A DNA stretch of 13,720 nt from Bacillota bacterium (GTDB lineage: Bacteria; Bacillota; Clostridia; Oscillospirales; JAKOTC01), in contig JAKOTC010000258.1 of the NCBI GenBank assembly GCA_029776465.1, positions 1 to 13,720 of the forward strand, read 5' to 3'. Within the stretch, counting starts at the first letter, position 1. The number at the start of each line of letters is the position of its first letter. A program made the translations under genes and the position numbers. Positions 1-13,720 of this stretch are shown here, piece by piece. Below the pieces are notes generated by a model. That model worked only from the letters and a program-made list of their open reading frames with translations, searched no databases and was not told the DNA's origin.

Positions 1-1219
1 AAAGGTTGCGGATCAGCTGGGAGATGGAGGGTGTTTTGATGTTGATTTTTTGGATGTATTCCTCGGCGGCGGCGGACACCTTTTTGGAATTGACCACGCC
101 CCAGCTTGAAAAGCGGTTCAGGTCGGTTAGAACGATGTTGTCCGCCACGGAGAGCCCGGTGGCAAGGCCGAAGCGCTTCCGGTCCTCGGAGAGATAGCCG
201 ATTCCGTGATGCACGGCATCGCTGGGGGAGTGAATCCGAACGGCTTTGCCGTTTTTCTTAATGGTGCCCCCGGTCATGGGGTCGGCGCCGAAGATCAGGC
301 GGGCCACCTCGGTGCGCCCCGCCCCCATCAGCCCGGCAAACCCGAGAATCTCGCCCCGGCGAAGCTGGAAGGAAACCCCCTTCACATCGGGGGAGGTGAG
401 GTTTTCCACCTCCAGCACCACTTCGGCGTCGGCGGGAACCATGCTGACGGTTTTGGGCTCCTCGTAAATGGTTCGGCCCACCATGGCGCTGATGATTTCG
501 TCCAGGGTGGTTTCGGCCGTGATGAGGGTTTTGATGTACTCCCCGTCCCGCAGGATGGTGATCCGGTCGGTGATGTCCATGATCTCGTCCATCCGGTGGG
601 AGATATAAATCATGGACACGCCCTTTTCCTTCAGGTCGCGCATGGTTTTGAAGAGCTCCTTGACTTCCGCCTCGGTCAGGGCGGCGGAGGGTTCGTCTAA
701 CACCAGAACCTTGGAGTCATAGGAGAGGGCCTTGGTGATCTCCACCATCTGCTGCTTGCCCACCGTCAGGCTGCCCACCTTATCGGTGGGGCGGATGCTG
801 AGCTTGAGGTGGTCGAAAAGTTCCTGGGTTTTTCGGTTGATCTCCCCGTCGTTTAACAGGAATCCCTTGGACTCCCGTCCGATGAAAACATTCTGGGCGG
901 CGGTGAGATGGTTCATCAGGTTCAGTTCCTGATGGACGATGGAGATGCCGGCCTCCTGGGCCCCCTTGGGGTTTTTGAAGGCTACCGGTTTCCCGTTGTA
1001 GAGAATCTCCCCCTTGTCGGCGGTGTAAATGCCGGTCAACACCTTCATCAGGGTGGATTTGCCTGCGCCGTTTTCGCCCACCAGCGCGTGGATTTCGCCC
1101 TTTCTCAGCTCGAACTGGCAGTTTTTCAGCGCGTGAACGCCCTGAAACCGCTTGTCGATATCCTTCATCTGCAATATCACTGGCCTGTCTTTATATTCAT
1201 GATGGGATGCAGTATTCAT
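1..1219 (-). CDS. Sugar ABC transporter ATP-binding protein, RbsA/MglA/XylG family (partial, C-terminus off left edge)
   Basis: Cytoplasmic ATPase that powers import of a monosaccharide through an RbsC/MglC-type permease. The reverse-strand frame is open from ATG 1219 to the window edge, giving 406 residues of a family usually near 500. The first nucleotide-binding domain has Walker A GENGAGKS (residues 48-55), Q-loop HQELN, signature LTVGKQQ, Walker B VLVLDEPS and H-loop YISHR. The second domain has the degenerate Walker A GLMGAGRTE and the GYLSEDRK motif typical of this tandem-domain family. The ATG is preceded by GAGGTGATGA at good spacing. It is the first gene of a leftward operon; no binding-protein gene precedes it, so permease and any binding protein should lie to the left. 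It is divergent from the sensor operon, which probably controls it. Family assignment is firm; the sugar is unknown. Confidence 0.96.
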   Translation of the reverse strand, partial: MNTASHHEYKDRPVILQMKDIDKRFQGVHALKNCQFELRKGEIHALVGENGAGKSTLMKVLTGIYTADKGEILYNGKPVAFKNPKGAQEAGISIVHQELNLMNHLTAAQNVFIGRESKGFLLNDGEINRKTQELFDHLKLSIRPTDKVGSLTVGKQQMVEITKALSYDSKVLVLDEPSAALTEAEVKELFKTMRDLKEKGVSMIYISHRMDEIMDITDRITILRDGEYIKTLITAETTLDEIISAMVGRTIYEEPKTVSMVPADAEVVLEVENLTSPDVKGVSFQLRRGEILGFAGLMGAGRTEVARLIFGADPMTGGTIKKNGKAVRIHSPSDAVHHGIGYLSEDRKRFGLATGLSVADNIVLTDLNRFSSWGVVNSKKVSAAAEEYIQKINIKTPSISQLIRNL

Positions 1220-1286
1220 GATTCATCACCTCGCATATTCTGATGCAGCTGTGCACCACAGAAACCTTGTCGGACTTGGTGGAATC

Positions 1287-1315
1287 ATTATACCGTTTTT
1301 GTTATGCAAAAACCA
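1287..1315 (-). promoter_or_regulatory. Candidate promoter of the sugar ABC operon
   Basis: On the reverse strand a perfect TATAAT (1292 to 1287) lies about 68 bases upstream of the ABC ATPase start. The hexamer at -35 distance (1315 to 1310) is TGGTTT, a poor match to TTGACA. A good -10 with a poor -35 fits an activator-dependent promoter, as expected if the neighbouring response regulator drives it. An inverted repeat (GTTTTTG at 1295-1301, CAAAAAC at 1307-1313) overlaps the -35 region. The motif is visible; its activity is inferred. Confidence 0.5.
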
Positions 1316-1379
1316 TAGATAATCTTCCACAGAATGTTTGAGTTTTTACACAATGAACACGAAAATCAAAGGTAAAAAC
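1295..1379. repeat. Paired GTTTTT(G/A) inverted repeats in the divergent intergenic region
   Basis: Two inverted repeats share a GTTTTT core. The first is GTTTTTG (1295-1301) against CAAAAAC (1307-1313) with a 5-base gap. The second is GTTTTTAC (1342-1349) against GTAAAAAC (1372-1379) with a 22-base gap. A further TTTTTAC occurs at 1415-1421. They sit between two divergent start regions, where operators of the sensor system are expected. The region is AT-rich, so chance A/T tracts are possible; binding is inferred only. Confidence 0.4.
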
Positions 1380-1444
1380 AGCAATTTCCTATAAACTCTC
1401 CTAATTCTTTCAAATTTTTACTGGATTCTAAAGGAAGATTCGTT

Positions 1445-1450
1445 TATAAT
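1445..1450 (+). promoter_or_regulatory. Candidate -10 box of the sensor operon promoter
   Basis: A perfect TATAAT at 1445-1450 faces the response regulator gene. No good TTGACA-like hexamer lies 16-18 bases upstream (TGGATT-like sequence near 1422-1427), so the promoter is weak or activator-dependent. If used, it would give a 5' leader of roughly 210 bases that includes the TTGCG repeats and the GC-rich fold-back at 1556-1613. Confidence 0.4.
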
Positions 1451-1532
1451 AGAATCAGCAAAATGATGGATATTATAGTGAGATATTTGGCAAAAACAAA
1501 TCCCTTCCCACGATTTCCCGATTTCATGGGAT

Positions 1533-1555
1533 TTGCGCTTCTTGCGGCGTTTGCG
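1533..1555 (+). repeat. Three TTGCG repeats at exact 9-bp spacing
   Basis: TTGCG occurs at 1533-1537, 1542-1546 and 1551-1555, that is three copies with a 9-base period. The first and third extend to TTTGCGCT (1532-1539 and 1550-1557). They lie between the candidate -10 box and the response regulator start. Short phased direct repeats are typical regulator sites, but the function here is unknown. Confidence 0.4.
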
Positions 1556-1613
1556 CTGCCCTCCCCGCCCCGAAGTCCGATTGGTCGGACCCGGGCTTGC
1601 CGGGGAGGGGCAG
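1556..1613 (+). promoter_or_regulatory. GC-rich nested hairpin in the response regulator leader
   Basis: The outer arm at 1556-1567 (CTGCCCTCCCCG) pairs with 1601-1613 apart from one bulged G. Inside is a perfect 6-bp stem, GTCCGA at 1575-1580 and TCGGAC at 1585-1590, with loop TTGG. No U-tract follows, so it is not an ordinary intrinsic terminator. If transcribed it would be a strong structure about 58 bases before the start codon, possibly affecting RNA stability or translation. Confidence 0.45.
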
Positions 1614-1659
1614 GCAGGGCCTGATTGCAGATGAACAATACATGAAAACAGTTTCGACA

Positions 1660-1665
1660 GGAGGG
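1660..1665 (+). promoter_or_regulatory. Ribosome binding site that fixes the response regulator start
   Basis: GGAGGG at 1660-1665 lies 5 bases before ATG 1671. An in-frame GTG at 1665 overlaps this site, so it cannot be the start; the ATG at 1671 is used. Confidence 0.8.
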
Positions 1666-1670
1666 TGCAC

Positions 1671-3251
1671 ATGCTGTACAAGGTTCTGCTGGCAGAGGAC
1701 GAGCCGGAGGTGCTGAGCGCCATCATCCGGACCATCCGCTGGGAGGAGCACGGATTTGAAAGGCCGCTGGCCTGCGGGGATGGCCAGGAGGCCATCGAGG
1801 CCCTGAAAAACGGGTTTGTCCCCCATCTGATCATCACCGATATCTGTATGCCCATCGCCGACGGGTTTGATCTGATCCGCTTCGCCAACAACAAGACCCC
1901 CGGCGCGGTTGTGGTGATCATCAGCGGGTATGACGATTTCAAATACGCTCAGACCGCCCTCAAGCTGTCGGTCACCGATTATCTCCTCAAGCCCGTTACC
2001 CCCGGGCAGATCTATGAGATGCTGGACAAGATGAAGGCCAAGCTGGATCAGCTGCAGTCCCGGTCCAGCGGGGACTCGGAGAAAATCGTGATCAGCCATT
2101 TCCTAAACCGGCTGGTCAGCCGGCGGATGGACGAGAACCTGATCCGGGAAAACTGCGAGCTGTATCATATCCGGTTCAGGGGCAGTTGCCACCAGGTGGC
2201 GCTGCTGGATGTGGACCTGCCCGGCAGCAGCGAGGATCAAAACCTGGAGCTGATGCGCTTTGCCCTTTTCAATATCACCGAAGAGCTGACGGCCGGCATG
2301 AAGGGCGTGGTGGTTTTCCAATCCCAAAGCGGCATCACCCATCTGATTTTCAGCGGCGAGGCCCCGGAGGAGTTGGAGACCCGTATCCGGGAGTGCTTCG
2401 AGCTGCTTTTAAAATCCATGGTTCAGCACATGGGCCTGACCATATCGGGCGGGGCGGGAGAGTGGATGTCCGAGCCCTCCGCCCTTCACATCTCCTGCCG
2501 GCAGGGGGGAGAGGCCCTGGCGTGGCGGTTCTTCAAGGGCACCGGCAGTCTGACCTTCAGCCGGGAGCTGGCCTTTGAAACCCTGGAGAACTTTGATTAC
2601 GGGGAGGCGGAGGCCCGGATACTCTCGGCGGTTCGGGCGGCGGACCGCCCCGAGGCCTACAGGGCCGTGGACCATTTCCTCTCCAAGCTGCGGGAGAACC
2701 GCATCGGGCTGAGAAACAGCATCCGCTTTACCAAGCGGATTTTGGCCGCCCTGAACACCCTTGCCCGCCAGCTGCTGGCGCGGCCCTCTGTCGAGCTGCA
2801 GCGATCTGCCGACGCCATCGGATTCAACAGCGTTCTCACCCTGGATCAGCTGGGCGGCTCCCTGCACCTGTTCTGCGATCAGCTTTTCGATCTTTTGAAA
2901 AATATCCAGACCGATACCGCCACCGCCATGGTCCACAAGGCGGAGGAGTATATCCGGGAGCATTTCGCCGACCCCAACATCTCCCTCAACACGGTGGTGG
3001 AGCATCTCTCGGTCAGCACCAGCTATTTCAGCAGCACCTTTAAGGCCAAAACCGGCATGACCTTTCTGGAGTATCTCACCCATCTGCGGATTGAGAAGGC
3101 CAAGCAGATCCTCGTCCTCACCGACCGGCGGACCTATGAGGTGGCGGAGGATGTGGGCTACTCCGATCCCCAGTATTTCAGCGTGGCCTTCAAACGGGTC
3201 ACCGACCAGACCCCCCGGGAGTTCCGGGAGAACAGCCGGAAACAGAAATAA
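1671..3251 (+). CDS. AraC-type response regulator (YesN family)
   Basis: DNA-binding response regulator of 526 residues, the cytoplasmic output of a sugar-sensing two-component system. The receiver domain (residues 1-120) has acidic pocket E9/D10, phospho-acceptor D57 in ITDICMP, S85 and K107 in the LLKPV motif. A long middle region (about 125-415) has no motif I recognise, as is usual in YesN-type regulators. An AraC/XylS double helix-turn-helix occupies about 420-520, including a KAKTGMTFLEYL segment and the VAEDVGYSDPQYFSVAFK segment. It is followed 38 bases later by the kinase gene in the same direction. By analogy with XylFII-LytS-YesN and AraPST it probably activates the divergent sugar ABC operon. 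The start is set by GGAGGG at 1660-1665. Confidence 0.95.
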   Translation: MLYKVLLAEDEPEVLSAIIRTIRWEEHGFERPLACGDGQEAIEALKNGFVPHLIITDICMPIADGFDLIRFANNKTPGAVVVIISGYDDFKYAQTALKLSVTDYLLKPVTPGQIYEMLDKMKAKLDQLQSRSSGDSEKIVISHFLNRLVSRRMDENLIRENCELYHIRFRGSCHQVALLDVDLPGSSEDQNLELMRFALFNITEELTAGMKGVVVFQSQSGITHLIFSGEAPEELETRIRECFELLLKSMVQHMGLTISGGAGEWMSEPSALHISCRQGGEALAWRFFKGTGSLTFSRELAFETLENFDYGEAEARILSAVRAADRPEAYRAVDHFLSKLRENRIGLRNSIRFTKRILAALNTLARQLLARPSVELQRSADAIGFNSVLTLDQLGGSLHLFCDQLFDLLKNIQTDTATAMVHKAEEYIREHFADPNISLNTVVEHLSVSTSYFSSTFKAKTGMTFLEYLTHLRIEKAKQILVLTDRRTYEVAEDVGYSDPQYFSVAFKRVTDQTPREFRENSRKQK

Positions 3252-3289
3252 AGCGGCCGATCCGATGACGCAAAGGGGAGGATGCAAAC

Positions 3290-5123
3290 GTGAAGAAACC
3301 GGTCCAATGGCTTAAGCGATTATTCAATTTCGACAGCATCAAGGGCGGCCTGATCTATTCCTTCACCCTGCTGATCGCCACCGTGATCCTGCTGTCCTCT
3401 CTGATGTCCTATCAATATATTGTCTATTATTATCAGAAGGTCTCCACTTCCTACGCCATCCAGCTTCTCCAAACGGTGAACGCCAATATCGATGTGTACA
3501 TCTCCAGCATCAAGAGCATGGCCCAGCTGGTGGTGCGAAACACCGACGTGAACAGCCTGATGTCCCTGTACCAAATCCCGGGCGAGCTGACTCCTTTCCA
3601 AAAGGAGCGGGAGGCCCGTTTAAAGGCCAACGTGGCCGACCTGCTGACTACCATGGTCAACACCCAGAAAAACGTGACCAATGTGGCCATCCTTTCCGCC
3701 GGGGGGGCAGGTGATCTTCGGGGACCCCGATAAAAAGGTCAACGAAAACGCCGATTACCAAAGCAGCGACTGGTATCAGAAAGCCCTTTCCTATACCGCC
3801 GACATCATCGTCTCCCCCTCCCATGTGCAGAATCTGGTCAAGGACGAGTATCCCTGGGTGATCTCGGTCTCCAAGGCCATTGTGGACCGGGAGACGGGGG
3901 AGGTCACCGGCGTGCTGGTGATCGACCTGAATTATAAGGCCATCGAGAGCATCTGCGAGAAGGTGCAGCTGGGGCAGAGCGGCTATATCTATCTGGTGGA
4001 TTCGGACGCCAACCTCATCTACCACCCCCAGCAGCAGTTGATCTACACCGGGCTGAAAACCGAAAACACCGCCGACATCCTGAAAATGCCCGATACCCAG
4101 TCCTATTTTATTGACAACCAAAGTAAAAAAATCTACACCCGCAATTTCTCCCTTCTCACCGGCTGGAGCGTGGTGGGGGTGTTGAATGCCAACGAGCTGG
4201 CCGACCAGAAAAGCCTGATCAATTTCGTGGTGCTGGTCGCCCTGGCTTCCATCCTGCTGGCCAGCTTCCTGGCCATCATGATCTCAACGGTTATGACCCG
4301 CCCCATCAAGCAGCTGGAGAACACCATGCACGAGGTGGAGAAGGGCAATTTCAACGTCCGGTCGGACATCCGGTTGAATAATGAAATCGGTCACCTCTCC
4401 AACACCTTCAACGTGATGGTCTCCGACATTCAGAAGCTGATGGAGCAGACCATCCGGGACGAGGAGGAGAAGCGGAAGAGCGAAATCAAAGCCCTTCAGG
4501 CCCAGATCAACCCCCACTTCCTCTATAACACCCTGGACACCATCATCTGGATGTCGGCCAGCGGCAAAAACGACGAGGTGGTGGAGGTGACCTCGGCCCT
4601 GGCCAAGCTCTTCCGAACCAGCATCAGCACCGGGGAGATGCTGGTGACGCTGGCGGTGGAGATCGAGAACATCAAAAGCTATCTGATTATCCAAAAGATG
4701 CGGTATAAAGACAAGCTTCGCTATCGGCTGGACATCCCCGATTCGCTGCTGAACTGCCGCCTGCCCAAGCTGATCTTGCAGCCCATCGTGGAGAACGCCA
4801 TCTATCACGGCATCAAGCTCAGCCCCACCGGCGGGGAGATTTTGATTCAGGGCAGCCTGCAGGGGGAAAACCTGTTGCTGAGCGTGAGCGACAACGGGGT
4901 GGGGATGACCGGTCAGCAGCTGGAGCGGCTCTTCGATCCCAAGGACAGCTCCCGGGGCATCGGCATCCACAACGTTCACAACCGGATCCAGCTCTTTTTC
5001 GGCAATCAATACGGGCTGTCCATCCAAAGCCGGGACGGGGAGGGCACCCGGGTGGACATTCTGCTGCCCAATCTGCCCATGCCGACCACGCCCAACGAGG
5101 AGGGAGAAAGCGAAAATGGCTAA
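3290..5123 (+). CDS. Sensor histidine kinase, YesM/LytS-like (frameshifted as sequenced)
   Basis: Membrane sensor kinase that phosphorylates the preceding response regulator. It starts at GTG 3290 with GGGGAGG eight bases upstream. The N-terminal frame runs to a stop at 3733; the rest is read in another frame from about 3707 to 5123. Removing one G from the seven-G run at 3701-3707 restores a continuous 610-residue protein. Order: transmembrane helix (about 20-45), a large extracellular sensor region that looks Cache-like (about 50-305), second transmembrane helix (about 311-333), HAMP domain, His_kinase phosphoacceptor H409 in NPHFLYNTL, then HATPase with N502 in QPIVENAIYHG, DNGVGM and a GIGIHNV glycine box. 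The stop overlaps the next start by 8 bases. The shift may be sequencing error, phase variation or inactivation. Confidence 0.9.
3701..3707 (+). other. Seven-G homopolymer causing the kinase frameshift
   Basis: Seven G residues follow GCC at 3698-3700. With seven, the frame ends at TAA 3731-3733; with six, it reads SAGGQVIFGDPDKK and continues to the conserved kinase core. The protein sequence on both sides is of normal kinase character, so one G is extra relative to a functional gene. Confidence 0.88.
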
Positions 5124-6105
5124 GCGGTATTATGTGCTGCTGCTCTGTTTCTTTCTGGTCTGCCTGACGGCCATCCTGCTGATCTTTACCCACCAGAACG
5201 CCCCCATCTCCTTTCAGCCGGTGGAGAAATACAATATCCGAATCATTTTAAAGTCCAGCGCCCCCACTCCCGCCTTCTGGCGGATTGTGGAGCAGGGGGT
5301 GGACGTGGCCTCCAAAGAGTTCGAGGTCAGCTGCCAGGTGACCGCCCCCAAGTCGGAAATCGACGTGGAGGGCCAGATCAAACTGGTGGAGGAGGCCATC
5401 GCTCAAAAGCCCGACGCCATCGTTCTGGCCGCGGCGGATTATGACCGCCTGGCGGGGGTATGCAAAAAGGCGGTGGAGCAGGGCATCCGCCTCATCACCG
5501 TGGACAGCGATGTCAACTATGACAAAAAAAGCTGCTTTGTGGGCATCGACAACTACGAGCTGGGCAAAAAGCTGGCCCAGCAGGTGGATCTTCTGATCGG
5601 CCCGGAGGAGCAGTTCGGGGTGATCGGCCATGTTTCCACCGTCTTTACCGCCATCGAGCGGCGGCAGGGGCTGCTGGACAATGTTCGAAACGCCGACCGG
5701 CGCCTGGCGGATATCCAATACTGCAACAGCTCGGAGGAGCTGGCCAAGCAGCAGACCATTGAGATGCTTCAAAAATACCCCTCCATCCGGTGCATGGTGG
5801 GGCTGAACGAGAGCTCGGCGGTGGGCATCTGCAAGGGGCTGACCGAACTGGGGCTGGCGGGAAAAATCAAGGTGGTCGCCTGCGACAGCTCCACCCAGCT
5901 GATTCAGTATATGGAAATGGGCACGGTGCAGGTTTTTGTGGTGCAAAACCCCTTTAATATGGGGTATGTCAGCGTCAAGCAGGCGGTGCGGATCCTGCAG
6001 GGCAAAAAAATTGACCCCGCCTTCGACACCGGCAGTGTGGTGGTCACCAGAGAAAACCTCTATACCCAGGAGAACCAAAAGCTTTTGTTCCCCTTTACCA
6101 ATTAA
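5116..6105 (+). CDS. Membrane-anchored periplasmic-type sugar-binding protein
   Basis: Protein of 329 residues of the Peripla_BP_4 (ribose/galactose-binding) fold. An uncleaved-looking transmembrane anchor spans about residues 5-25. No clear lipobox or signal peptidase site is visible. Family hallmarks include LITVDSDV, the GIDNYELGKKLAQQ segment, AIERRQGLLDN, the late VVACDSS strand and VVQNPFNMGYVSVKQA. Its ATG overlaps the kinase stop by 8 bases (ATGGCTAA), implying translational coupling. Placement in the kinase operon rather than with the transporter suggests a sensory role: it binds sugar outside the membrane and signals through the kinase's extracellular domain, as XylFII does with LytS. 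It could also deliver sugar to the transporter. The ligand is not predictable. Its stop overlaps the convergent lipoprotein stop by a few bases. Confidence 0.93.
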   Translation: MAKRYYVLLLCFFLVCLTAILLIFTHQNAPISFQPVEKYNIRIILKSSAPTPAFWRIVEQGVDVASKEFEVSCQVTAPKSEIDVEGQIKLVEEAIAQKPDAIVLAAADYDRLAGVCKKAVEQGIRLITVDSDVNYDKKSCFVGIDNYELGKKLAQQVDLLIGPEEQFGVIGHVSTVFTAIERRQGLLDNVRNADRRLADIQYCNSSEELAKQQTIEMLQKYPSIRCMVGLNESSAVGICKGLTELGLAGKIKVVACDSSTQLIQYMEMGTVQVFVVQNPFNMGYVSVKQAVRILQGKKIDPAFDTGSVVVTRENLYTQENQKLLFPFTN

Positions 6106-6716
6106 ACCTTTATCGGGAGGTTCCACTCCGTGTCCGCCACCCCAATGTTCGAATAATTCATGAGGGTGTTCTTTTTCAGCTGTTCCAGATCCAACACGCT
6201 GACGATTTGATCCTCTTTGACCTCAAACAGCCCATCTGGATTTGAAAGCGTGAAATAAAAATGACCCCTCGCCATCTTTGAAACCGTCCGGGGTGAAAAT
6301 TGGTGATAACGCCGGGAACGGCGGCATTGGTGCTTTCGTATGCGAATGTGCCGGGAAACCGGCCTTTCCCCTTGGTGATCTTGGCAAAAAACAGCCGGTG
6401 TCAATCTGATACCGGCTTTCGTCGCTGTATAAAATATTGTTGGCATCCAGGTATAGAACGGGGGAAGCGATGGAATCCCATGTTCTCTTAAAGGCAGTTC
6501 AATGACGGCATATCCCTCGGGGGCAGGGGGTGGCCTCCGCGGGAAGGCTCATATCTTCGGAGGCCATCGGCTCCGAGGTTACGGTATTGTCCGGGGCCGC
6601 ATTTTTCAGCAGTTCGCTTTCCTTGGCTCTATCCGGGGATATACGGCGGATTTCGTTTCAGCCCGGCAGCCGCAAAGCAAGCATGCGCATAAGATGCAGA
6701 GCAGGCGCTTTTTCAT
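6102..6716 (-). pseudogene. Small lipoprotein gene broken by six single-base indels
   Basis: The reverse strand encodes a lipoprotein start at ATG 6716 (MKKRLLCILCACLLCGC, lipobox LCGC, cleavage before C17) with AGGGGG and GAGG upstream. Coding sense then moves between frames six times. Expected changes are: add one A near 6651-6658, remove one C at 6526-6530, add one A near 6488-6489, add one T at 6386-6391, remove one T at 6296-6299 and remove one T at 6257-6261. They sum to zero and give one 204-residue frame ending at TAA 6104-6102, with recoverable stretches such as EATPAPEGYAVIEL, ASPVLYLDANNILYSDESR, GRFPGTFAYES, EGSFYFTLSNPDGLF and MNYSNIGVADTEWNLP. I do not recognise the family. It could be a secreted or cell-surface protein. 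Dense homopolymer indels without in-frame stops suggest sequencing error or very recent decay. Confidence 0.8.
6386..6417 (-). other. Terminator-like hairpin inside the broken lipoprotein gene
   Basis: On the reverse strand AGCCGGT (6417 to 6411) pairs perfectly with ACCGGCT (6399 to 6393) across an 11-base loop and is followed by G and six T residues (6391-6386). This resembles an intrinsic terminator for leftward transcription, although the same bases encode the conserved-looking YQIDTG segment. The T-run is also one of the indel sites. Coincidental structure is possible. Confidence 0.25.
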
Positions 6717-6757
6717 ATCCTCGCCCCCTAAAATCCCTGAGTTTCTTGGGCTTCTCT

Positions 6758-6785
6758 TTCACATTTTTCCCCTTCGTGGTATAAT
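6758..6785 (+). promoter_or_regulatory. Promoter of the HD-domain/NUDIX gene pair
   Basis: TTCACA (6758-6763, five of six matches to TTGACA) and TATAAT (6780-6785) are separated by 16 bases. The -10 is extended by TGG (6777-6779). Transcription would begin near 6792, leaving a short leader with GGAGGGG before ATG 6813. This is the best-looking vegetative promoter in the window. Confidence 0.75.
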
Positions 6786-6812
6786 GAAGAAAAATGCCGC
6801 CGGAGGGGTTTT

Positions 6813-7310
6813 ATGAACACCGTCGACCGTCTGATGTCCGCCATGATTGATTATTACAGCGGAGACCCCAAACGCATCCAGCATTTTATCAAGGTGCACA
6901 GCTTTGCCCGCCTGATCGGACTGGAGGAGGGGCTGGATGCCGAGACCCTTTTTACTCTGGAGTCCGCCGCCCTGGTCCACGATATCGGCATCCGGATCTG
7001 CGAGGAAAAATACGGCGGCAACACCGGAAAGCAGCAGGAGGCCGAGGGTCCCGCGCCGGCCAGAGAGATGCTGGAACAGCTGGGCTACCCTCCCCAAGTG
7101 ACCGACCGGGTTTGCTTTCTGGTGGGGCATCACCACACTTATTCCGGCATCGAGGGAGCAGACTATCAGATTCTGGTGGAGGCCGACTTTCTGGTCAACC
7201 TCTATGAGGATGGTCTGGGCAGAGCCGAAGCCGAGTCGGTTTTGAATCGGATATTTAAAACCCCCTCGGGCAGAAAGCTTTTAAAGACGATGTTTTTGAC
7301 CCCTGCCTGA
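6813..7310 (+). CDS. HD-domain phosphohydrolase-like protein
   Basis: Protein of 165 residues with a metal-dependent HD hydrolase signature: H29 in the IKVHSFARLIG helix, the H56-D57 doublet in ALVHDIGI, histidines 106-108 in LVGHHHTYSG and D125 in VEADFLVN. Small HD proteins of this length act on nucleotides or other phosphate esters; the substrate cannot be read from the sequence. The start has GGAGGGG at 6802-6808 and a strong promoter close upstream. The NUDIX gene follows after 32 bases in the same direction, so the two probably form a small operon with a housekeeping or sanitation role. No transmembrane segment or signal peptide is seen. Confidence 0.88.
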   Translation: MNTVDRLMSAMIDYYSGDPKRIQHFIKVHSFARLIGLEEGLDAETLFTLESAALVHDIGIRICEEKYGGNTGKQQEAEGPAPAREMLEQLGYPPQVTDRVCFLVGHHHTYSGIEGADYQILVEADFLVNLYEDGLGRAEAESVLNRIFKTPSGRKLLKTMFLTPA

Positions 7311-7342
7311 AAGAATAAATTATAAAGTCTGGAGCAATCATC

Positions 7343-7798
7343 ATGATCACTGTTACCGCCGCCATCCTCCGCAACGCCTCGGGGGAAATTTTAATCTGCC
7401 GCCGGGGAGCGGGCGGAAACTGCGCCTTCCTCTGGGAATTTCCAGGCGGCAAACTGGAAGCGGGCGAATCGGAGGAGGACTGCGTGGTTCGGGAGTGCCA
7501 GGAAGAACTGGGCATCACCATCCGGCCCACCGGGGTCTTCCAGCAGACCACCTATTCCTACCCCGATAAAGAGATCGCCTTCACCTTTTTCCTGGCCGAA
7601 TTGGTCAGCGGAACCCCCACCCCCGCCGTCCATGCGGAAATCCGCTGGGTTCTTCCCGCCCGGCTCAAGGAGTTTGAATTCTGCCCCGCCGATGTTGAAA
7701 TTGTCGAGCGGCTTTCCAAATGGGAGGTTTTTTGCAGCCCTGACCCATCTTTTTCGGCGAGATTACTTGGCCCGGGCAACTTGAGGAGTTGCCGCTGA
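7343..7798 (+). CDS. NUDIX hydrolase, MutT-like
   Basis: Cytosolic pyrophosphohydrolase of about 150 residues. The complete Nudix box G-x5-E-x7-REUxEExGU spans residues 36-58 (GGKLEAGESEE, then RECQEELGI), which coordinates the catalytic metal. N-terminal TVTAAILRN...LICRRG and WEFPGGK match MutT-type (8-oxo-dGTP diphosphatase-like) enzymes, and the FEFCPADVEIVERL segment is the usual C-terminal end. About 25 further residues follow (WEVFCSPDPS onward) that look unlike a MutT tail and may be out-of-frame sequence. GGAG lies 8 bases before the ATG. It follows the HD gene closely. Exact substrate unknown; nucleotide sanitation is the likeliest role. Confidence 0.92.
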   Translation: MITVTAAILRNASGEILICRRGAGGNCAFLWEFPGGKLEAGESEEDCVVRECQEELGITIRPTGVFQQTTYSYPDKEIAFTFFLAELVSGTPTPAVHAEIRWVLPARLKEFEFCPADVEIVERLSKWEVFCSPDPSFSARLLGPGNLRSCR

Positions 7799-7865
7799 CA
7801 TTGCCGAAAATGCTATTGACTTGAATACTGTTATCGCTTCTATGAACGGGAAATATAAATATTAG
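7727..7865 (+). pseudogene. Possible frameshifted coding remnant after the NUDIX core
   Basis: Downstream of the NUDIX core, other frames carry protein-like sequence: FAALTHLFRRDYLAR (about 7730-7775), QLEELP (about 7777-7794) and ADIAENAIDLNTVIASMNGK ending KYKY at TAG 7863-7865. Removing one T in the run near 7728-7733, removing one G near 7773-7775 and adding one G near 7793 joins them to the NUDIX frame. The final stretch is AT-rich unlike its surroundings. It may be a true NUDIX extension broken by homopolymer indels, or a remnant of another gene. I do not recognise the sequence. Confidence 0.35.
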
Positions 7866-7931: not shown

Positions 7932-8714
7932 TTATTTTTCCCAAATTTTCCAGGGGCATTGCTCGCTTTTCCACAGTTCGTTGAGATACTGCATATCCCG
8001 AACGGTGTCCATGCAGGCCCAGAAGCCGTCGTGCTGATAGGCGGCCATCTGGTTGTCCCGGATGATGTTTTCAACCGGCTCCCGCTCCCAGGTGGTCTGG
8101 TCTCCCTCGATATAATCGATGGCCTCGGGCTAGCAGATGAAGAAGCCGCCGTTGATCCAGTTGTTGTCCCCCTTGGGTTTTTCGGCGAACTTTAAGACGG
8201 TGTTGTCCTGGCCGATGTTCATCACGCCGAAACGGCCGGAGGGCTTGATGGCGGTAACGGTGACCAGCTTGCCGTGTTTCTTGTGAAATTCCAGCTGTTC
8301 TTTGATGTTGATATCCGAGATGCCGTCCCCGTAGGTGAGGAAGAAGGGCTCGTCGTTGAGATGTTTTCGGATCCGTTTGATACGGCCGCCGGTCATGGTG
8401 TTGATGCCGGTGTCGGCCAGGGTGACCGTCCAGGGCTCGGCCACCGTGGTGTGGGAAACGAATTTCTTCTGGCTGTGGTCAAAAGAGAAGGTCACATCCG
8501 ACTCGTGAAGGAAATAGTGCTCAAAATATTCCTTGATATAATACCCCTTGTATCCCAGGCAGATGACAAACTCGTTAAAGCCGTAATAGGAATACAGCTT
8601 CATGATGTGCCAGAGGATGGGGCGCTCGCCGATTTCAATCATCGGCTTGGGTTTCAAATGGGATTCCTCGCTGATGCGGGTGCCGAAACCGCCCGCCAGA
8701 ATAACAACCTTCAT
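7932..8714 (-). CDS. rfbF: Glucose-1-phosphate cytidylyltransferase with in-frame TAG at codon 195
   Basis: Makes CDP-glucose from glucose-1-phosphate and CTP, the first step to CDP-linked deoxysugars for cell-surface glycans. The N-terminus has the nucleotidyltransferase motif LAGGFGTR (6-13), KPKPMIEIG, and the LTYGDGISDIN segment with metal-binding D130; EKPKGDNNWINGGFF precedes the break. A TAG codon at 8132-8130 follows GGFFIC, where RfbF homologues carry a residue such as E or N before P. The same frame continues 65 residues (PEAIDYIEGDQTTWEREP ... GFWACMDTVRDMQYL ... PWKIWEK) to TAA 7934-7932, total 260 codons, close to the usual 257. The downstream part is fully conserved in character, so the gene is intact except for one codon. 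It is the last gene of the leftward cluster, 41 bases after the radical SAM gene. Confidence 0.93.
8130..8132 (-). other. In-frame amber codon within rfbF
   Basis: TAG occurs on the reverse strand at codon 195 of 260. One base change from GAG would restore a glutamate. Apart from the doubtful remnant ending at 7865, every complete gene here ends in TAA or TGA. The cause may be mutation, sequence error or, much less likely, stop-codon readthrough. Confidence 0.85.
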
Positions 8715-8755
8715 TGATTTTCATCCTTTCCGCTCCACCGTATATGATAGATTCT

Positions 8756-9859
8756 TTATTTTTCCCAATCAGGCGCAAAGACGTTGCCGATCTGGATAAA
8801 GGAGAACTTTTGGTTCCAGTTGGCGTTGGAGGACTGATAGCACCGGCTGCAGGGAGCGGGCATCTTTTCCGGATCGTTGATCCGGGCCCGGATGTCCTGA
8901 TACTCGGGGCTGTTCCACATCTCCTCAAAGGTGGCGTATTTGCTGATGTGGAAGAGCTTGTCGGGGGTGGACATACAGCTGCGCACATATCCGTCCGAGC
9001 CCAGGAAGAAGTCCCTCCAGGGGGTGAAGCAGTCCTTGTGCACCTTATCCCCGGCGGGGTCCTCGCCGCTCAGGTGGGGAAGCTTCAGCAGAACCCCCAG
9101 CTGTTCGGCCAGCCTGGCTGCCTCGTCAAAGACCTCCCGCACCTCGTCCATGCAGTAATAGAGGCTTTCCTGCCGCATATCCTCGCTGAAGGCCGTCAGG
9201 TAGACCACCTTCAGCTCCTCCAGGCCGATATCCGCCGTCAGCCGCACCAGGTCGGGGATCTGACGGAAGTTGGACTTCATGGCGGTGAAAACAAAATTCA
9301 TATAGGGGTAGGAGAGATTCTGCTCCTTCTTGATTTTCACGATATTGCGCAAGGAGCTTGTGATCTTGTTAAAGTCGGCGCCCCGGCGGATCCGGTCGTT
9401 GGTCTGCTGGTCCGCCCCGTCCAGGCTGATGGCGAACACATCCACCTTGTGCTTGAAAATTGCGGGGGTCAGCTTGTCCAGCAGCATCCCGTTGGTGCAG
9501 AAGTATTTTCTCAGCCCGGCCTCGTCCATAATCTCCAGCATCTTTTCAAACTGGGGGTGCATGGTGGGCTCGCCCCAGCCCATCAGGGTAATCTCCTCAA
9601 TGTCGGGGAAGATGTCCCGGAACAGCTCAAACCACTCCAGCTTAAACATGGTGGGCTTGAATTCCGCGCTGTTCCGCCCGCACATCACGCAGTTGAGATT
9701 GCAGGCGTTGGTCAGCTCGAATACCAGTCTGCGGGGTTTCGAGTCCAGAAGGGTCTTGCACGCTCTCAGCTCCTGAAGGTTCAGATCGCTGTTCTGCTGG
9801 CGGCGGGGAGTCAGCTCTTTGGTTTTAATTAAATCTTCTCTTTTTGCCCGGATAATCAT
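8756..9859 (-). CDS. Radical SAM protein with SPASM-type C-terminal cluster
   Basis: Cytosolic [4Fe-4S] radical S-adenosylmethionine enzyme of 367 residues. The SAM-binding cluster motif CxxxCxxC is C53, C57 and C60 (ACNLNCVMCGRNS), followed by the GWGEPT motif (94-99) and a TIM-barrel core (FCTNGMLL, FAISLDGAD). Four C-terminal cysteines, C277, C295, C337 and C340 (PAPCSRCYQ), look like a SPASM/twitch auxiliary cluster. GAGGAGG lies 8 bases before the ATG. It sits between glf and rfbF with gaps of 44 and 41 bases, so it is probably co-transcribed. SPASM proteins often modify peptides, but no precursor peptide is seen here; context suggests a sugar or glycan-precursor substrate (inference). 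Substrate and reaction are unknown. Confidence 0.92.
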   Translation of the reverse strand: MIIRAKREDLIKTKELTPRRQQNSDLNLQELRACKTLLDSKPRRLVFELTNACNLNCVMCGRNSAEFKPTMFKLEWFELFRDIFPDIEEITLMGWGEPTMHPQFEKMLEIMDEAGLRKYFCTNGMLLDKLTPAIFKHKVDVFAISLDGADQQTNDRIRRGADFNKITSSLRNIVKIKKEQNLSYPYMNFVFTAMKSNFRQIPDLVRLTADIGLEELKVVYLTAFSEDMRQESLYYCMDEVREVFDEAARLAEQLGVLLKLPHLSGEDPAGDKVHKDCFTPWRDFFLGSDGYVRSCMSTPDKLFHISKYATFEEMWNSPEYQDIRARINDPEKMPAPCSRCYQSSNANWNQKFSFIQIGNVFAPDWEK

Positions 9860-9903
9860 GGCGGGTGCCTCCTCTTTTTCATTGAAAACGAAAGAAAAAC
9901 ATG

Positions 9904-11082
9904 TTATGATGATTTATATTCTTTGATGATCTCCGCGGCCGCTTCCAGCGCCCGGGCAATCACTTTGTCCATGTAGTAATACTGGTATTCCGCCAGCCGG
10001 CCCACGGCGAAAAGATTGGGATACTGCTTCAGTTCCGCCCGGTAGGGTTGATAGGCGGCATTGGCGGCGTCGGACACAATGGGGTAGTAGGGGATGTTTC
10101 CCTTTGCCCCGTCCTTGTCGAAAGCCATGGGGTATTCCCGGACGATGGTGGTGCGGCCGGTGTCGGGCTTGTGCTCCATCAGATGCTTGTATTCCACAAT
10201 CCGGGTGATGGGATACTGGAAATCGGGGTAACAAACCCCCAGAGTGGGCTGGAAGGTCTCCTGCTCAACGGTTGCATACTCAAATTCCAGCGAGCGATAG
10301 GGCAGAACCCCCAACCGGTATCCGAAAAGCTCGTCCACCGCGCCGGTGTAGACCACCGGGCCTTCAAAAATCTCCCCATCCGCCAGCACCTTGCGGTTTT
10401 CCGTGTCCAGGGAGATCCGTTTCAATCCGTCCACGCCCAGCTGAACCCGAATATTCGGATGGTCCAGCAGGTCTTTGAAAAGGGCGGTAAAGCCCCCGCG
10501 GGGCATGAACTGATATTTGTCCAAAAACACCCGGTCTTCATAGCTGGCCCGAAAGGGGACCCGGGCGGTCACGCTGGGGTCGATTTGGGTGGGGGAGAGG
10601 CCCCACTGCTTGCTGGTGTAGGGAAAATAGTCCTTTTCGTAAAAGAAGAGGGCCATCTGTCTGAGGGTTTCATCCTCCCCGTTGATCAGCTCCAGCACCG
10701 GTACATGGGTCCCTTCGCCGTACCGTTCAATCAGGGCCCGGCGGATCTTCTCGGCCTGATCCGGCTGGAAAAGAAGGTCGATGGCGGTGAAGTTAAAGGG
10801 CATGGGCACGATTTTTCCCTCGATCAGCGCCGAGGTGCGCAGCTCAAAGGGGTACCATTGGCCGAATCTGCTGATAAAATGCCAAACCGCATCGTCATTG
10901 GTATGAAAGATATGGGGCCCGTATCGATGGACCAAAACCCCGTTTTCATCCGTTTCGTCATACATATTGCCGGCGATTTGACCGCGCCGCTCCAGTATCT
11001 CCACGTTGAAGCCGCTTTCCGCCAGCCGGCGGGCCGTTACCGCTCCGGCAAAGCCGCACCCGATTACAATCGCTTTCATCAT
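9904..11082 (-). CDS. glf: UDP-galactopyranose mutase
   Basis: FAD enzyme that interconverts UDP-galactopyranose and UDP-galactofuranose, supplying Galf for cell-surface glycans. It is 392 residues, near the normal 370-390. N-terminal FAD motif GCGFAG (8-13) is followed by ERRGQIAGNMYDE, then YGPHIFHTND and PFNFTAID, typical of bacterial Glf. Later signatures include FPYTSKQWG, PRGGFTALF, VVYTGAVDELFGY and the C-terminal flavin segment NLFAVGRLAEYQYYYMD. A start at ATG 11082 (MMK) has GAAAGGA upstream at better spacing than ATG 11079. It is 34 bases from the divergent SDR gene and 44 bases before the radical SAM gene. No oddities are seen in the protein. Confidence 0.96.
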   Translation of the reverse strand: MMKAIVIGCGFAGAVTARRLAESGFNVEILERRGQIAGNMYDETDENGVLVHRYGPHIFHTNDDAVWHFISRFGQWYPFELRTSALIEGKIVPMPFNFTAIDLLFQPDQAEKIRRALIERYGEGTHVPVLELINGEDETLRQMALFFYEKDYFPYTSKQWGLSPTQIDPSVTARVPFRASYEDRVFLDKYQFMPRGGFTALFKDLLDHPNIRVQLGVDGLKRISLDTENRKVLADGEIFEGPVVYTGAVDELFGYRLGVLPYRSLEFEYATVEQETFQPTLGVCYPDFQYPITRIVEYKHLMEHKPDTGRTTIVREYPMAFDKDGAKGNIPYYPIVSDAANAAYQPYRAELKQYPNLFAVGRLAEYQYYYMDKVIARALEAAAEIIKEYKSS

Positions 11083-11107
11083 ACTTTTCCTTTCAAGGAC
11101 ATCGTTT

Positions 11108-11112
11108 GGAGG
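11108..11112 (+). promoter_or_regulatory. Ribosome binding site that fixes the SDR start
   Basis: GGAGG at 11108-11112 lies 4 bases before ATG 11117. The open frame extends upstream to 11006, but that part is antisense to glf and has no ribosome binding site, so the start is 11117. Confidence 0.8.
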
Positions 11113-11116
11113 TTTT

Positions 11117-12025
11117 ATGCAAAATTCTATTCCTCAGAAAGTTTTGGTCACAGGGGCAAGTGGTTTTATCGGCCGTCAGGTTGTCTCTTTGCTGGTAAAC
11201 AGAGGATACGAGGTACACGTGACCTCTCGTGCCCCTTCCTTTTTGATAGAGGGTGCAGTGACCCACTCGGTAAATCTGCTGGATACCGCCCAAATCCAAG
11301 GGCTGTTGCAGCAGATAAAACTGGAAGGGCTGATCCATCTGTCCTGGGAGGTGTCCGCCGGAACCTTCCGCACCTCGGAAAACAACCTGCTCTGGCTCTC
11401 TAAAAGCCTCGATCTTCTCAAAGCTTTCGCCGAAAACGGGGGAAGCCGGATGGTTTTCGCCGGAAGCTGCTCGGAATACACCCCCGGTCAGGGGATGCTC
11501 TCGGAAGAGTCGGATATCTCACGCCCGGCCTGCCTCTATGGTTCCAGCAAGGCCGCTTTTTACATCATGGCCAATCGGCTAACAGCACAGCTTGGTTTAT
11601 CCTATCGCCACGCCCGGATATTTACGGTCTACGGGCCGGGTGAGGTAAAGCTGTCCAGCGCCATTCCGCTTTGCATTCAAAGCCTTTTGTCTGGTAAAGA
11701 ATTTGTTTGCAAGGCTCCCGATAATGTTTGGGATTATCTCTATATTGAGGATGCCGCCCGCGCCCTTGTCGCCCTTTATGAAACCCCGGAACAGGGAGTA
11801 TTTAATATTGCTTCGGGCAGACCGGTGGTGATGAGGGAGGTATTCAACACCATCGGAAGGCTGACGGGACGGGAGGAACTGGTTCGATTTGACCCCCATC
11901 CTTCCAAGCCCGGCTTTATGACGGCCAATACTCAAAAGCTGAACCAAATCCTGAAATTTATTCCACAAACAAAGATGGAAGAGGGATTGCAAAAGACCGT
12001 TGATTGGTGGAAAACCAGGGTTTAA
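11117..12025 (+). CDS. NAD(P)-dependent epimerase/dehydratase/reductase (extended SDR, NDP-sugar type)
   Basis: SDR enzyme of 302 residues acting on a nucleotide sugar. The cofactor motif TGASGFIG (12-19) starts the Rossmann fold; catalytic residues are S117/S119 in AGSCSEY and Y141xxxK145 in LYGSSKAA. HARIFTVYGPGE and WDYLYIEDAARALVALYE are typical extended-SDR segments. Length and context resemble the CDP-abequose synthase/4-ketoreductase type (RfbJ-like), so reduction or epimerisation of a CDP-keto sugar is plausible, but function is not proven. It is the only rightward gene in this cluster, 34 bases from glf and directly abutting the transketolase C stop. Two sampled 60-base lines hold 29 and 27 G/C, against 34 in lines from glf and the transketolase gene, suggesting separate acquisition. 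No clear promoter is seen upstream. Confidence 0.9.
   Translation: MQNSIPQKVLVTGASGFIGRQVVSLLVNRGYEVHVTSRAPSFLIEGAVTHSVNLLDTAQIQGLLQQIKLEGLIHLSWEVSAGTFRTSENNLLWLSKSLDLLKAFAENGGSRMVFAGSCSEYTPGQGMLSEESDISRPACLYGSSKAAFYIMANRLTAQLGLSYRHARIFTVYGPGEVKLSSAIPLCIQSLLSGKEFVCKAPDNVWDYLYIEDAARALVALYETPEQGVFNIASGRPVVMREVFNTIGRLTGREELVRFDPHPSKPGFMTANTQKLNQILKFIPQTKMEEGLQKTVDWWKTRV
11124..11151 (-). promoter_or_regulatory. Weak candidate promoter for glf inside the SDR gene
   Basis: On the reverse strand GTGACC (11151 to 11146, four of six matches to TTGACA) and TAGAAT (11129 to 11124, five of six to TATAAT) are 16 bases apart, about 42 bases upstream of the glf start. It would let glf and downstream genes be transcribed independently of the transketolase genes. 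Motif match only. Confidence 0.3.
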
Positions 12026-12949
12026 TCATTCCAATCCAATGGTTTTGGCGATTGTTTTATAAACCCCTTCGCCGTCAATGCCGTACACCCGCTGCTGATA
12101 ATCCCGTCCGCCCACCGTCTCGGTAAAGCAGTCGGGGATGGAGAGCCGCTTGAAGTGCTTGGCGGTCAGTCCGGCTTCCAGCGCGAAGCCCGCCACCGCG
12201 TTGCCCAGCCCGCTGGCGGCATTGTGCTCCTCCAGGGTGAAGACCGCGCCGCACCGGAAGGCCTCGGCGATGGCCTCCCCGTCCAGGGGCTTGACGGTGT
12301 GCATGCTGAATATTTTAACGCTCAGCCCTTTTTGCAGGAGCCTCTCTCTTGCAAGGAGGGCTGACTGTGTAATGCCGCCGGTGGAAAGGATGGCCACATC
12401 GCTGCCCTCGGTCATTTTAATGGCCTTTCCGATTTTAAAATCAATCTCCCCCTGATGCAGGGTGGGGTCATTGGTTTTTCCGATGGCGATATAGCAGGGA
12501 GCGTTCAGCTCGAAAGCTTTCCGGACCGCGTGACGGGTCTCCACGGGGTCGCAGGGGCAGAGCACGGTCATGTTGGGAAGGGAGGACATAATGGCCAGAT
12601 CCTCGGGGGCGTGATGGGTGGCGCCCATGTTGGAATAGGACATTCCGGTGCCGACGCCCACCAAAACCACCGGCAGGTTCTGATAGCAGACATTGATTTT
12701 AATCTGTTCGAAAGCCCGGGAGGGAAGGAAGGGGGCCATGGAATAGGCCACCGGCTTTTTTCCTCTCAGCGCCATGCCGCAGGCGATATTCACCAGGTCC
12801 TGTTCGGCGATGCCGGTGTTGTAAAACCGTCCGGGGAACTCGGCCTCAAAGCCTTCCACCACCGAAAATCCCACCTCGGCCATCAGGAGGCAGATTCTGT
12901 CGTCCTCCCGCGCCACCTGGGTCAGTTCTTTGATAAAAGCCGTACGCAT
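12026..12949 (-). CDS. Transketolase C-terminal subunit (pyrimidine-binding and C-domains)
   Basis: Second half of a split transketolase, 307 residues, typical for this subunit. The frame starts with MRTAFIKELTQVA at ATG 12949; its ATG overlaps the upstream stop as TAATG, and AGGAGG lies about 10 bases before, so translational coupling is likely. A longer frame back to 13009 lies within the upstream gene and is rejected. The catalytic glutamate that activates thiamine diphosphate is in NTGIAEQDLVNIACG. APFLPSRAFEQIK and MGATHHAPEDLA are typical of the family, followed by the C-domain (VAILSTGGITQSALLA, IFSMHTVKPLD). Paired with the upstream subunit it would transfer two-carbon ketol units. 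Context suggests a nucleotide-sugar acceptor rather than the pentose phosphate pathway (inference). Its stop abuts the SDR stop. Confidence 0.93.
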   Translation of the reverse strand: MRTAFIKELTQVAREDDRICLLMAEVGFSVVEGFEAEFPGRFYNTGIAEQDLVNIACGMALRGKKPVAYSMAPFLPSRAFEQIKINVCYQNLPVVLVGVGTGMSYSNMGATHHAPEDLAIMSSLPNMTVLCPCDPVETRHAVRKAFELNAPCYIAIGKTNDPTLHQGEIDFKIGKAIKMTEGSDVAILSTGGITQSALLARERLLQKGLSVKIFSMHTVKPLDGEAIAEAFRCGAVFTLEEHNAASGLGNAVAGFALEAGLTAKHFKRLSIPDCFTETVGGRDYQQRVYGIDGEGVYKTIAKTIGLE

Positions 12950-13720
12950 TATTTCAGTTCCTCCTGTGCTTTGATATACTGCTGGTCGTCCGGCCATTTG
13001 TAATGCCATTCCACCCGGTCCTCCATAAAGGAGACCCCTTTGCCCTTGACGGTGTTGGCAATGATGGCGGTGGGCTTTCCTTTGCAGGCCTCCGCCTCGG
13101 CAAAGGCCCTGTGGAGAGCGGCGTAATCATGCCCGTCCACATCGATGGCATGAAAGCCAAAGGCGGCGAATTTGGCGGCCAGATCCCCCATGTTTAAAAC
13201 CTTGTCGTCATGGCCGTAAGACTGAAGCCGGTTGCGGTCCACAATGGCCACCAGATTGTCCAGCCCCTGGCGGGAGGCGAACATGGCGGCTTCCCAGACG
13301 GAGCCCTCGTTGCATTCCCCGTCCCCCATCAGGACAAAGGTCCGGGCGGGGCTGCCGCCGGTTTTGTCGGCGCAGGCGATCCCGCAGGCCAGGCCCAGCC
13401 CATGCCCCAGGGAGCCCGAGGAGGTTTCCACGCCCGGCAGGGAGCCCTTTTTCAGGTGGACTCCCACCTTGCTGTCACATCCGCAGAACTCCTCCAGCCG
13501 TTCCCGGGGGAAAAATCCCTTATTGGCCAGAACGGCGTAGAGGGCCACGGCGGCATGTCCCTTGCTCAGCAGGAACATGTCCCGGTTTTCCCAGCCGTCC
13601 CGATATTGAAAGAACCCGTTGTATAAAACGGAGAGGGTGTCGATGGCGGAAAAAGCGCCTCCGATAAAGGCGGTTTTCTTTTCATAGCACATCTTTAAAA
13701 TATCCTGCCTGCACTTGCGG
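12949..13720 (-). CDS. Transketolase N-terminal subunit (partial, N-terminus off right edge)
   Basis: First half of a split thiamine-diphosphate transketolase; 256 residues visible, and homologues begin some 15-25 residues earlier. The reading frame continues upstream of the internal ATG at 13692 to the edge (RKCRQDILK before it), so the real start lies beyond 13720. Cofactor motif GDGECNEGSVWEA is present, along with LLSKGHAAVALYAVL, SLGHGLGLACG and TVKGKGVSFME. An oddity: the position usually holding a conserved histidine (SGHPG or GHIGG) reads TAFIGG, so His is replaced by Phe. In transketolases that His contacts substrate, so substrate or reaction may differ. It is coupled to the C-terminal subunit by a one-base overlap. 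Upstream genes of the cluster are off-window. Confidence 0.92.
   Translation of the reverse strand, partial: RKCRQDILKMCYEKKTAFIGGAFSAIDTLSVLYNGFFQYRDGWENRDMFLLSKGHAAVALYAVLANKGFFPRERLEEFCGCDSKVGVHLKKGSLPGVETSSGSLGHGLGLACGIACADKTGGSPARTFVLMGDGECNEGSVWEAAMFASRQGLDNLVAIVDRNRLQSYGHDDKVLNMGDLAAKFAAFGFHAIDVDGHDYAALHRAFAEAEACKGKPTAIIANTVKGKGVSFMEDRVEWHYKWPDDQQYIKAQEELK

Follow-up and report, generated by a model that had tools for sequence, protein, structure and literature searches.

A candidate CDP-branched-sugar gene cluster combining a split transketolase with a radical SAM enzyme in a Clostridia contig

The DNA under study, referred to as the window, is an entire contig of 13720 bases (G000:C137) from a Bacillota bacterium of the class Clostridia, whose metagenome-assembled genome (MAG) amounts to 1.27 Mb in 286 contigs and is 55.7% complete. 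The portion from 7932 to 13720 harbors genes which, with a probability that we put at roughly one half, direct the synthesis of a cytidine diphosphate (CDP)-activated branched sugar for a surface glycan, via an early step of a radical S-adenosylmethionine (SAM) enzyme, a split transketolase (TK) and a short-chain dehydrogenase/reductase (SDR). A sequence-only reading had placed RfbF, a split TK pair, an SDR, a radical SAM enzyme and Glf together at this site, and Pfam and TIGRFAM matches confirmed all six genes:

7932..8714, minus strand: rfbF, glucose-1-phosphate cytidylyltransferase (product CDP-glucose); TIGR02623; in-frame TAG at 8130-8132
8756..9859, minus strand: radical SAM enzyme (rSAM) with a predicted twitch-type (four-cysteine) auxiliary-cluster domain, which is proposed to oxidize or dehydrate a CDP-hexose; Pfam Radical_SAM and SPASM
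9904..11082, minus strand: glf, UDP-galactopyranose mutase; TIGR00031, 373.9 bits (cut-off 303.75)
11117..12025, plus strand: SDR of the NAD-dependent epimerase/dehydratase family, proposed to reduce the ketone that two-carbon branching leaves behind; Pfam Epimerase
12026..12949, minus strand: TktC; Pfam; overlaps TktN as TAATG if translation starts at 12949
12949..13719, minus strand: TktN, TK subunit binding thiamine diphosphate (ThDP), 5'-truncated at the contig boundary, up to which the frame stays open; Pfam Transketolase_N

The plus-strand SDR gene, opposite in orientation to the other five, lies between those of TktC and Glf, its start 34 bases from the Glf start. The ThDP and the pyrimidine/C-terminal domains of the TK reside on two adjacent genes (Pfam Transketolase_N, Transket_pyr and Transketolase_C). 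The genes to the right of 13720, whose inspection the sequence-only reading had advised, lie outside this contig, and loci of relatives were examined in their place.

We propose that RfbF, whose family assignment is clear, would provide CDP-glucose. rSAM would employ a 5'-deoxyadenosyl radical, along with a single auxiliary Fe-S cluster, to abstract hydrogen from the CDP-hexose ring, converting the CDP-hexose to a CDP-ketosugar through oxidation or dehydration, and in the genome of the window it would replace, or work beside, a 4,6-dehydratase. As suggested by its genomic context, the split TK would then take two carbons, as a hydroxyacetyl unit, from a ketose phosphate and attach them to the ring ketone, which would become a tertiary alcohol carrying the branch; the TK would fill the job done by YerE with pyruvate in yersiniose. 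The SDR would reduce the branch ketone to a dihydroxyethyl group, and Glf would most likely provide for a distinct galactofuranose unit within this glycan.

The model for such a route is the formation of yersiniose, whose pathways (YerE, ErwE) start from CDP-glucose and use a ThDP enzyme that attaches a carbon unit to the CDP-sugar at its ring ketone, as described in a 2025 review (PMC12247030). The window shares with it the start from CDP-glucose and an SDR whose kin stand beside YerE-like enzymes of the acetolactate synthase (ALS) type in Clostridia. It differs in that its ThDP enzyme is a split TK instead of an ALS-type decarboxylase, for which no match was found in the window, in the presence of rSAM, and in that neither RfbG nor RfbH was seen in the window (for RfbH, the search covered the window). 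It is likely that the genes represent a yersiniose-type CDP-branched-sugar route with a TK in place of YerE, and we regard the TK/SDR part as a new variant of that route which occurs in several phyla. The review also relates that a split-gene TK was proposed to add a hydroxyacetyl group to a keto sugar in miharamycin and amipurimycin formation, and that 13 further TK sequences predicted by an earlier study, all from Streptomycetes, are untested (PMC12247030). These TKs belong to streptomycete nucleoside antibiotics, whereas those of the window type are found in CDP-sugar clusters of other phyla or classes.

A TIGR02623 profile search of 391 genomes of the class Clostridia detected 76 rfbF places in 72 genomes, or about one per five genomes, and 46 of these places exceed the cut-off. 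We inspected all of these 46 and eight of the 30 below the cut-off, with up to about 9.5 kb per side and less at contig ends. By BLAST thresholds of our own choosing, the 46 stretches contained RfbG in 31, RfbH in 25, a window-type SDR in 19, an ALS/YerE-like enzyme in 18, an RfbC-like protein in eight, TktC in five, rSAM in four and Glf in one. TktC is within the cluster in three of its five stretches (window, L041, L079); in the other two (L108, L110) the TK pair is located beside housekeeping-looking genes, and an ALS/SDR pair is found in its stead.

Split TKs inside rfbF clusters were found in Clostridia, a Paenibacillus, two Bacteroidota and a Methylovirgula. Besides L041, such pairs occur with rfbF and rfbG, mostly also with rfbH but without rSAM, in L079, L057, L061, L004 and L005. 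The plainest case, L079, has the order rfbF-rfbG-rfbH-GtrA-TktN-TktC-SDR and looks like a yersiniose arrangement with the TK in the place of YerE. A genome scan with TktC led to the two Bacteroidota loci, L004 and L005, each with rfbF, rfbG and rfbH (by BLAST) beside TktN-TktC. Ten of the 136 plasmid records matched by TktC were opened (H10, H11, H12, H14, H15, H18, H19, H25, H35, H49), and two of them contain rfbF and rfbG, in the orders rfbF-rfbG-SDR-rfbH-TktN-TktC (Methylovirgula) and rfbF-rfbG-methyltransferase-[SDR fused to TktN]-TktC (Paenibacillus cellulosilyticus). The remaining eight TKs have other surroundings, with genes of sugar catabolism, LysW genes or Pse genes, or could not be classified; as expected, most split TKs that we saw are not CDP-linked. 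The idea of a TK-made branch acted on by an SDR, put forward from the sequence alone, gains support from the TKs in rfbF clusters. Failure of the gene set to co-occur elsewhere, which had been named as grounds for giving up that idea, was not observed: L041 (genome G380) combines rfbF, rSAM, TktN, TktC and RfbG, and its rSAM, TktN and TktC are 62%, 48% and 42% identical to those of the window.

A TktC tree separates seven CDP-linked rows from ten rows of other contexts by a branch with a support of 84, and none of 500 shuffles was as clustered; 40 rows of unknown context are interspersed among these 17. This grouping bears on the view that the genes are no more than separate neighbors in a polysaccharide region, i.e. 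a split TK of ordinary sugar metabolism, Glf for galactofuranose and rSAM maturing an unseen protein. We consider this improbable. Split TKs are indeed common beside sugar-catabolism genes (L058, L065, L063), the pairs of L108 and L110 are near rfbF yet among housekeeping-looking genes, and Glf is not conserved; however, in addition to the grouping of CDP-linked TktC proteins, the abutting TktC and SDR genes, the SDR-TktN fusion of L057 and the proximity of rSAM to rfbF in all eight loci described below speak against it.

The gap between the TktC and SDR genes is at most 7 bases in the window, where the stop codons abut, and 30 bases in L079, and in L057 (Paenibacillus) SDR and TktN form a single fused protein. 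The window SDR falls into a set of 22 rows (SH-aLRT 96) together with SDRs from both TK-linked and ALS/YerE-like-linked CDP clusters, its nearest rows being SDRs that follow rfbF-rSAM-rfbC on Brachyspira plasmids; the tree was made by a quick method from 53 rows with a top identity of just 31% and no characterised YerF among them. The SDR gene is located less than 100 bases from that of the YerE-like enzyme in seven of the 18 ALS-bearing rfbF stretches.

Less expected than the TK/SDR part is the pairing of rSAM with rfbF. The rSAM family is tight: a protein search with rSAM returned 1371 matches, and the non-query rows among the best 120 listed are 59-66% identical to it. It is also rare, being found (E 1e-40) in six of the 391 genomes of the class, own genome included, with two of the other five merely 43-47% identical, and in two of 398 genomes of the phylum, likewise counting the own one; one further genome came from the family of G186. 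Counted with the centre genome, hits amount to 1/11, 1/71 and 2/40 genomes in the families of G380, G386 and G186, respectively, and to 1/58 in the order of G380. No close kin was present among 97 other genomes of the own order, where the best identity over a long stretch was 28-29%, and viral contigs gave matches of 25-30% only.

Eight rSAM loci were read at an identity of at least 50% (window, L041, L042, L043, L051, L127, L049, L050), and rfbF is near rSAM in every one of them. They span two classes of Bacillota and a spirochaete and correspond to about six independent cases, as a single genus accounts for both L043 and L051 and a single species for both L049 and L050. The gap between the two genes is 22-45 bases in the window, L042, L127, L049 and L050, and 1.9-6.5 kb in L041, L043 and L051. 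Given that rfbF occurs so sparsely in the class, we infer that the association of rSAM with rfbF is beyond chance. It extends to clusters without a TK (L042, L127, L049, L050), which have RfbC, accompanied in L042, L127 and L050 by a C-methyltransferase, while L043 (727 bits against a cut-off of 423) and its kin L051 have RfbH. RfbH requires a 4-keto substrate, and RfbC and sugar C-methyltransferases require a keto group. It is because these partners, like the TK, need a ketosugar that we propose rSAM to be an early CDP-hexose oxidase or dehydratase. FliD, FliF or flagellin genes in the regions of three Bacillota loci (L041, L042 with L054, and L043 with L053) suggest that flagellin is glycosylated in those cases; no flagellar gene is seen in the window itself.

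Nine Brachyspira hyodysenteriae plasmids were detected, two of which are the loci L049 (pBHWA1) and L050. On pBHWA1, the rfbF-rSAM pair (by gene order BHWA1_02683 and 02682) is directly upstream of a block comprising rfbC, an epimerase, a glycosyltransferase and a second radical SAM gene (02681-02678). According to a report on this species, the pair is present in all tested strains except A1 and FM88.90, and the four-gene block occurs only in virulent strains, its absence accompanying a reduced pathogenic potential (PMC4267127). Six additional genes annotated as radical SAM or SPASM are present in the sugar region of pBHWA1 (L049 19836-28671). The 43-47% identical rSAM relatives (G190, G214) had no rfbF in the stretches inspected (15 kb and 5 kb) and no RfbF match at E 1e-50. 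These relatives (L044, L045) adjoin sugar-metabolism genes and were left out of the family count; perhaps they form a sister family with another sugar substrate.

rSAM cysteines 53, 57 and 60 (CX3CX2C core) and 277, 295, 337 and 340 (auxiliary) are invariant in 55 family members. Designation of the protein as a SPASM enzyme from the sequence alone agrees with the Pfam match but not with the complete motif, which contains seven cysteines (CX9-15GX4C...CX2CX5CX3C...C; PMC6231123). The Pfam 'SPASM' domain of rSAM covers only the first four of these, with CX12GX4C in 55 of 55 rows; because the CX2CX5CX3C portion occurs in none of the 55, the auxiliary domain is predicted to be of the one-cluster twitch type, for which core plus four auxiliary cysteines are present. 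BtrN likewise has a twitch domain with four cysteines, which fully bind one auxiliary cluster, and it catalyzes the two-electron oxidation of a ring alcohol (PMC6231123, PMC9012708).

The predicted rSAM structure (pLDDT 92.5) and its sequence profile have BlsE as their best match (sequence profile, VIA-align and Foldseek). BlsE, a cytosylglucuronic acid decarboxylase, works on the sugar in a cytosine-linked hexose (PMC3715490). rSAM departs from it with an identity of about 19% and a score of 45 bits, where the BlsE family cut-off is 400, and its own substrate is presumed to be a CDP-sugar. DesII, a deaminase by function, is unlike rSAM in using a TDP-sugar and is 13% identical over the aligned part. 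The top NCBIfam match, a tungsten-cofactor oxidoreductase maturase (TIGR04317), was dismissed at 152.7 bits, below its curated cut-off of 380. Maturation of a ribosomally synthesized and post-translationally modified peptide was set aside as the principal role; the model has one pre-core helix and no separate N-terminal peptide-binding domain, and the recurrent neighbor of rSAM is rfbF rather than a peptide gene (small open reading frames were not searched systematically).

Five genomes with rSAM relatives (G186, G386, G555, G792, G380) could be searched for the CDP-glucose 4,6-dehydratase RfbG with profile TIGR02622 (cut-off 278 bits). The cut-off was exceeded in G380 only, where RfbG (359.7 bits) forms one gene run with rfbF, rSAM, TktN and TktC in L041. 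No match above it was found in G186, G386, G555 and G792, which are 99-100% complete (G186 and G386 one contig each) and whose best scores of 100-112 bits are in the range of related dehydratases. The own MAG gave 53 bits at best and nothing above the cut-off, at 55.7% completeness and with a cut contig. Late modification of the sugar by rSAM, as conceived in the sequence-only reading, gives way to an early step, which fits better because rSAM adjoins rfbF also without a TK and four of five relative genomes are without an above-cut-off dehydratase; we offer this early placement as a proposal. A somewhat doubtful alternative retains the CDP/TK/SDR route and assigns formation of the ketone to an RfbG encoded beyond the contig end, with rSAM acting at a later stage or at another site of the sugar, for instance by epimerizing or deoxygenating it. 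It would agree with the rfbG gene next to rSAM in L041, with the cut contig and incomplete MAG, and with the TK clusters that have rfbG and no rSAM (L079, L057, L061, L004, L005), but it sits poorly with the four rSAM genomes devoid of an above-cut-off RfbG and with the rSAM-rfbF adjacency in L042, L127, L049 and L050.

It is tempting to speculate, although only tentatively, that rSAM is the first member of a family of radical enzymes that oxidize or dehydrate CDP-hexoses. Such a family would be a second, unrelated opening of CDP-sugar chemistry without an NAD-dependent 4,6-dehydratase and would feed interchangeable modules (TK + SDR; RfbC + C-methyltransferase + SDR; RfbH + SDR), combined in the window with a TK that builds a two-carbon branch.

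Several points weigh against a branched-sugar route with an early rSAM step. All functions are inferred, and no activity is known for any rSAM family member. DesII and SkfB tie with BlsE within 1 Z unit in the structural comparison, the peptide enzyme SuiB is close and BtrN ranks 36th. The dTDP-glucose-type (RmlB-type) dehydratases scoring about 100-112 bits might act on CDP-glucose, and in L041 the presence of RfbG makes rSAM redundant as sole ketone maker. Local absence of RfbG is not specific to rSAM, being seen also in 12 of 42 rfbF stretches without rSAM; for these only the nearby stretch was examined, one being on a 6.5-kb contig and one having a broken rfbF, and no CxxxCxxC motif near a start was flagged in the open reading frames of nine of the 12. 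The window-type SDR was not found in L041, L004 and L005, and the support of 84 for the TktC branch is not starred. Finally, RfbF is interrupted, and window TktN has F in the SGHxGG-type motif, at a position occupied by H in all 11 comparable rows (12 other rows were compared; that of L057 is mis-cut there and reads SSHVG elsewhere). We take this histidine to be catalytic.

RfbF scores 403 bits against TIGR02623 (cut-off 300) in spite of the TAG inside, which is codon 195, and its uninterrupted portion by itself reaches 308 bits. The TAG may be a genuine nonsense change, a strain mixture or an assembly error. Together with the F for H in TktN it raises the question of whether the gene copy of the window may be damaged. 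That the cluster is decaying in this strain is nevertheless rather unlikely: the remaining five frames are open, and a break in a sensor-kinase frame at 3290-5123 may reflect an error in the assembled sequence.

Glf had been counted among the pathway members. Its occurrence in one of 46 rfbF stretches, distant flavoproteins in L043, L051 and L112 not being scored, speaks against this, and Glf is probably a neighbor outside the CDP pathway. A role as CDP-sugar mutase was rejected on the same grounds.

A literature search, for which subscription papers were mostly out of reach, yielded nothing on a TK/SDR CDP-sugar route, on an rSAM-rfbF pair or on radical SAM enzymes with CDP-glucose, only PMC4267127 for radical SAM with glucose-1-phosphate cytidylyltransferase, and two papers for transketolase with CDP-glucose. 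Should our proposal hold true, TKs would be makers of branched sugars on bacterial surfaces, which the consulted sections of the 2025 review (PMC12247030) list only as a proposed function, for two nucleoside antibiotics and the 13 streptomycete sequences, and the rSAM-rfbF pair would constitute an added radical route into CDP-sugars.

Some further observations concern other CDP-sugar arrangements and the remainder of the window. In L097, L098, L099, L101 and L103 an ALS/YerE-like ThDP enzyme directly adjoins rfbF and RfbG is absent from the stretch. L108 (5195-6802) and L110 (12541-14172) encode, as judged by eye, an HMG-CoA-lyase/aldolase-type protein between RfbH and the YerE-like enzyme, which might supply an alpha-keto acid donor. 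Positions 1-7800 of the window, likewise judged by eye, resemble an ordinary set of genes for sugar uptake and regulation, with a transporter ATPase, an AraC-type response regulator, a sensor kinase and a sugar-binding protein; HD-domain and MutT-type genes come next. GC is equal across the window halves (0.558 vs 0.556). The sensor-kinase gene is read in two frames that overlap (3290-3733 and 3681-5123), a pattern suggestive of a frame break or a sequence error in the contig.

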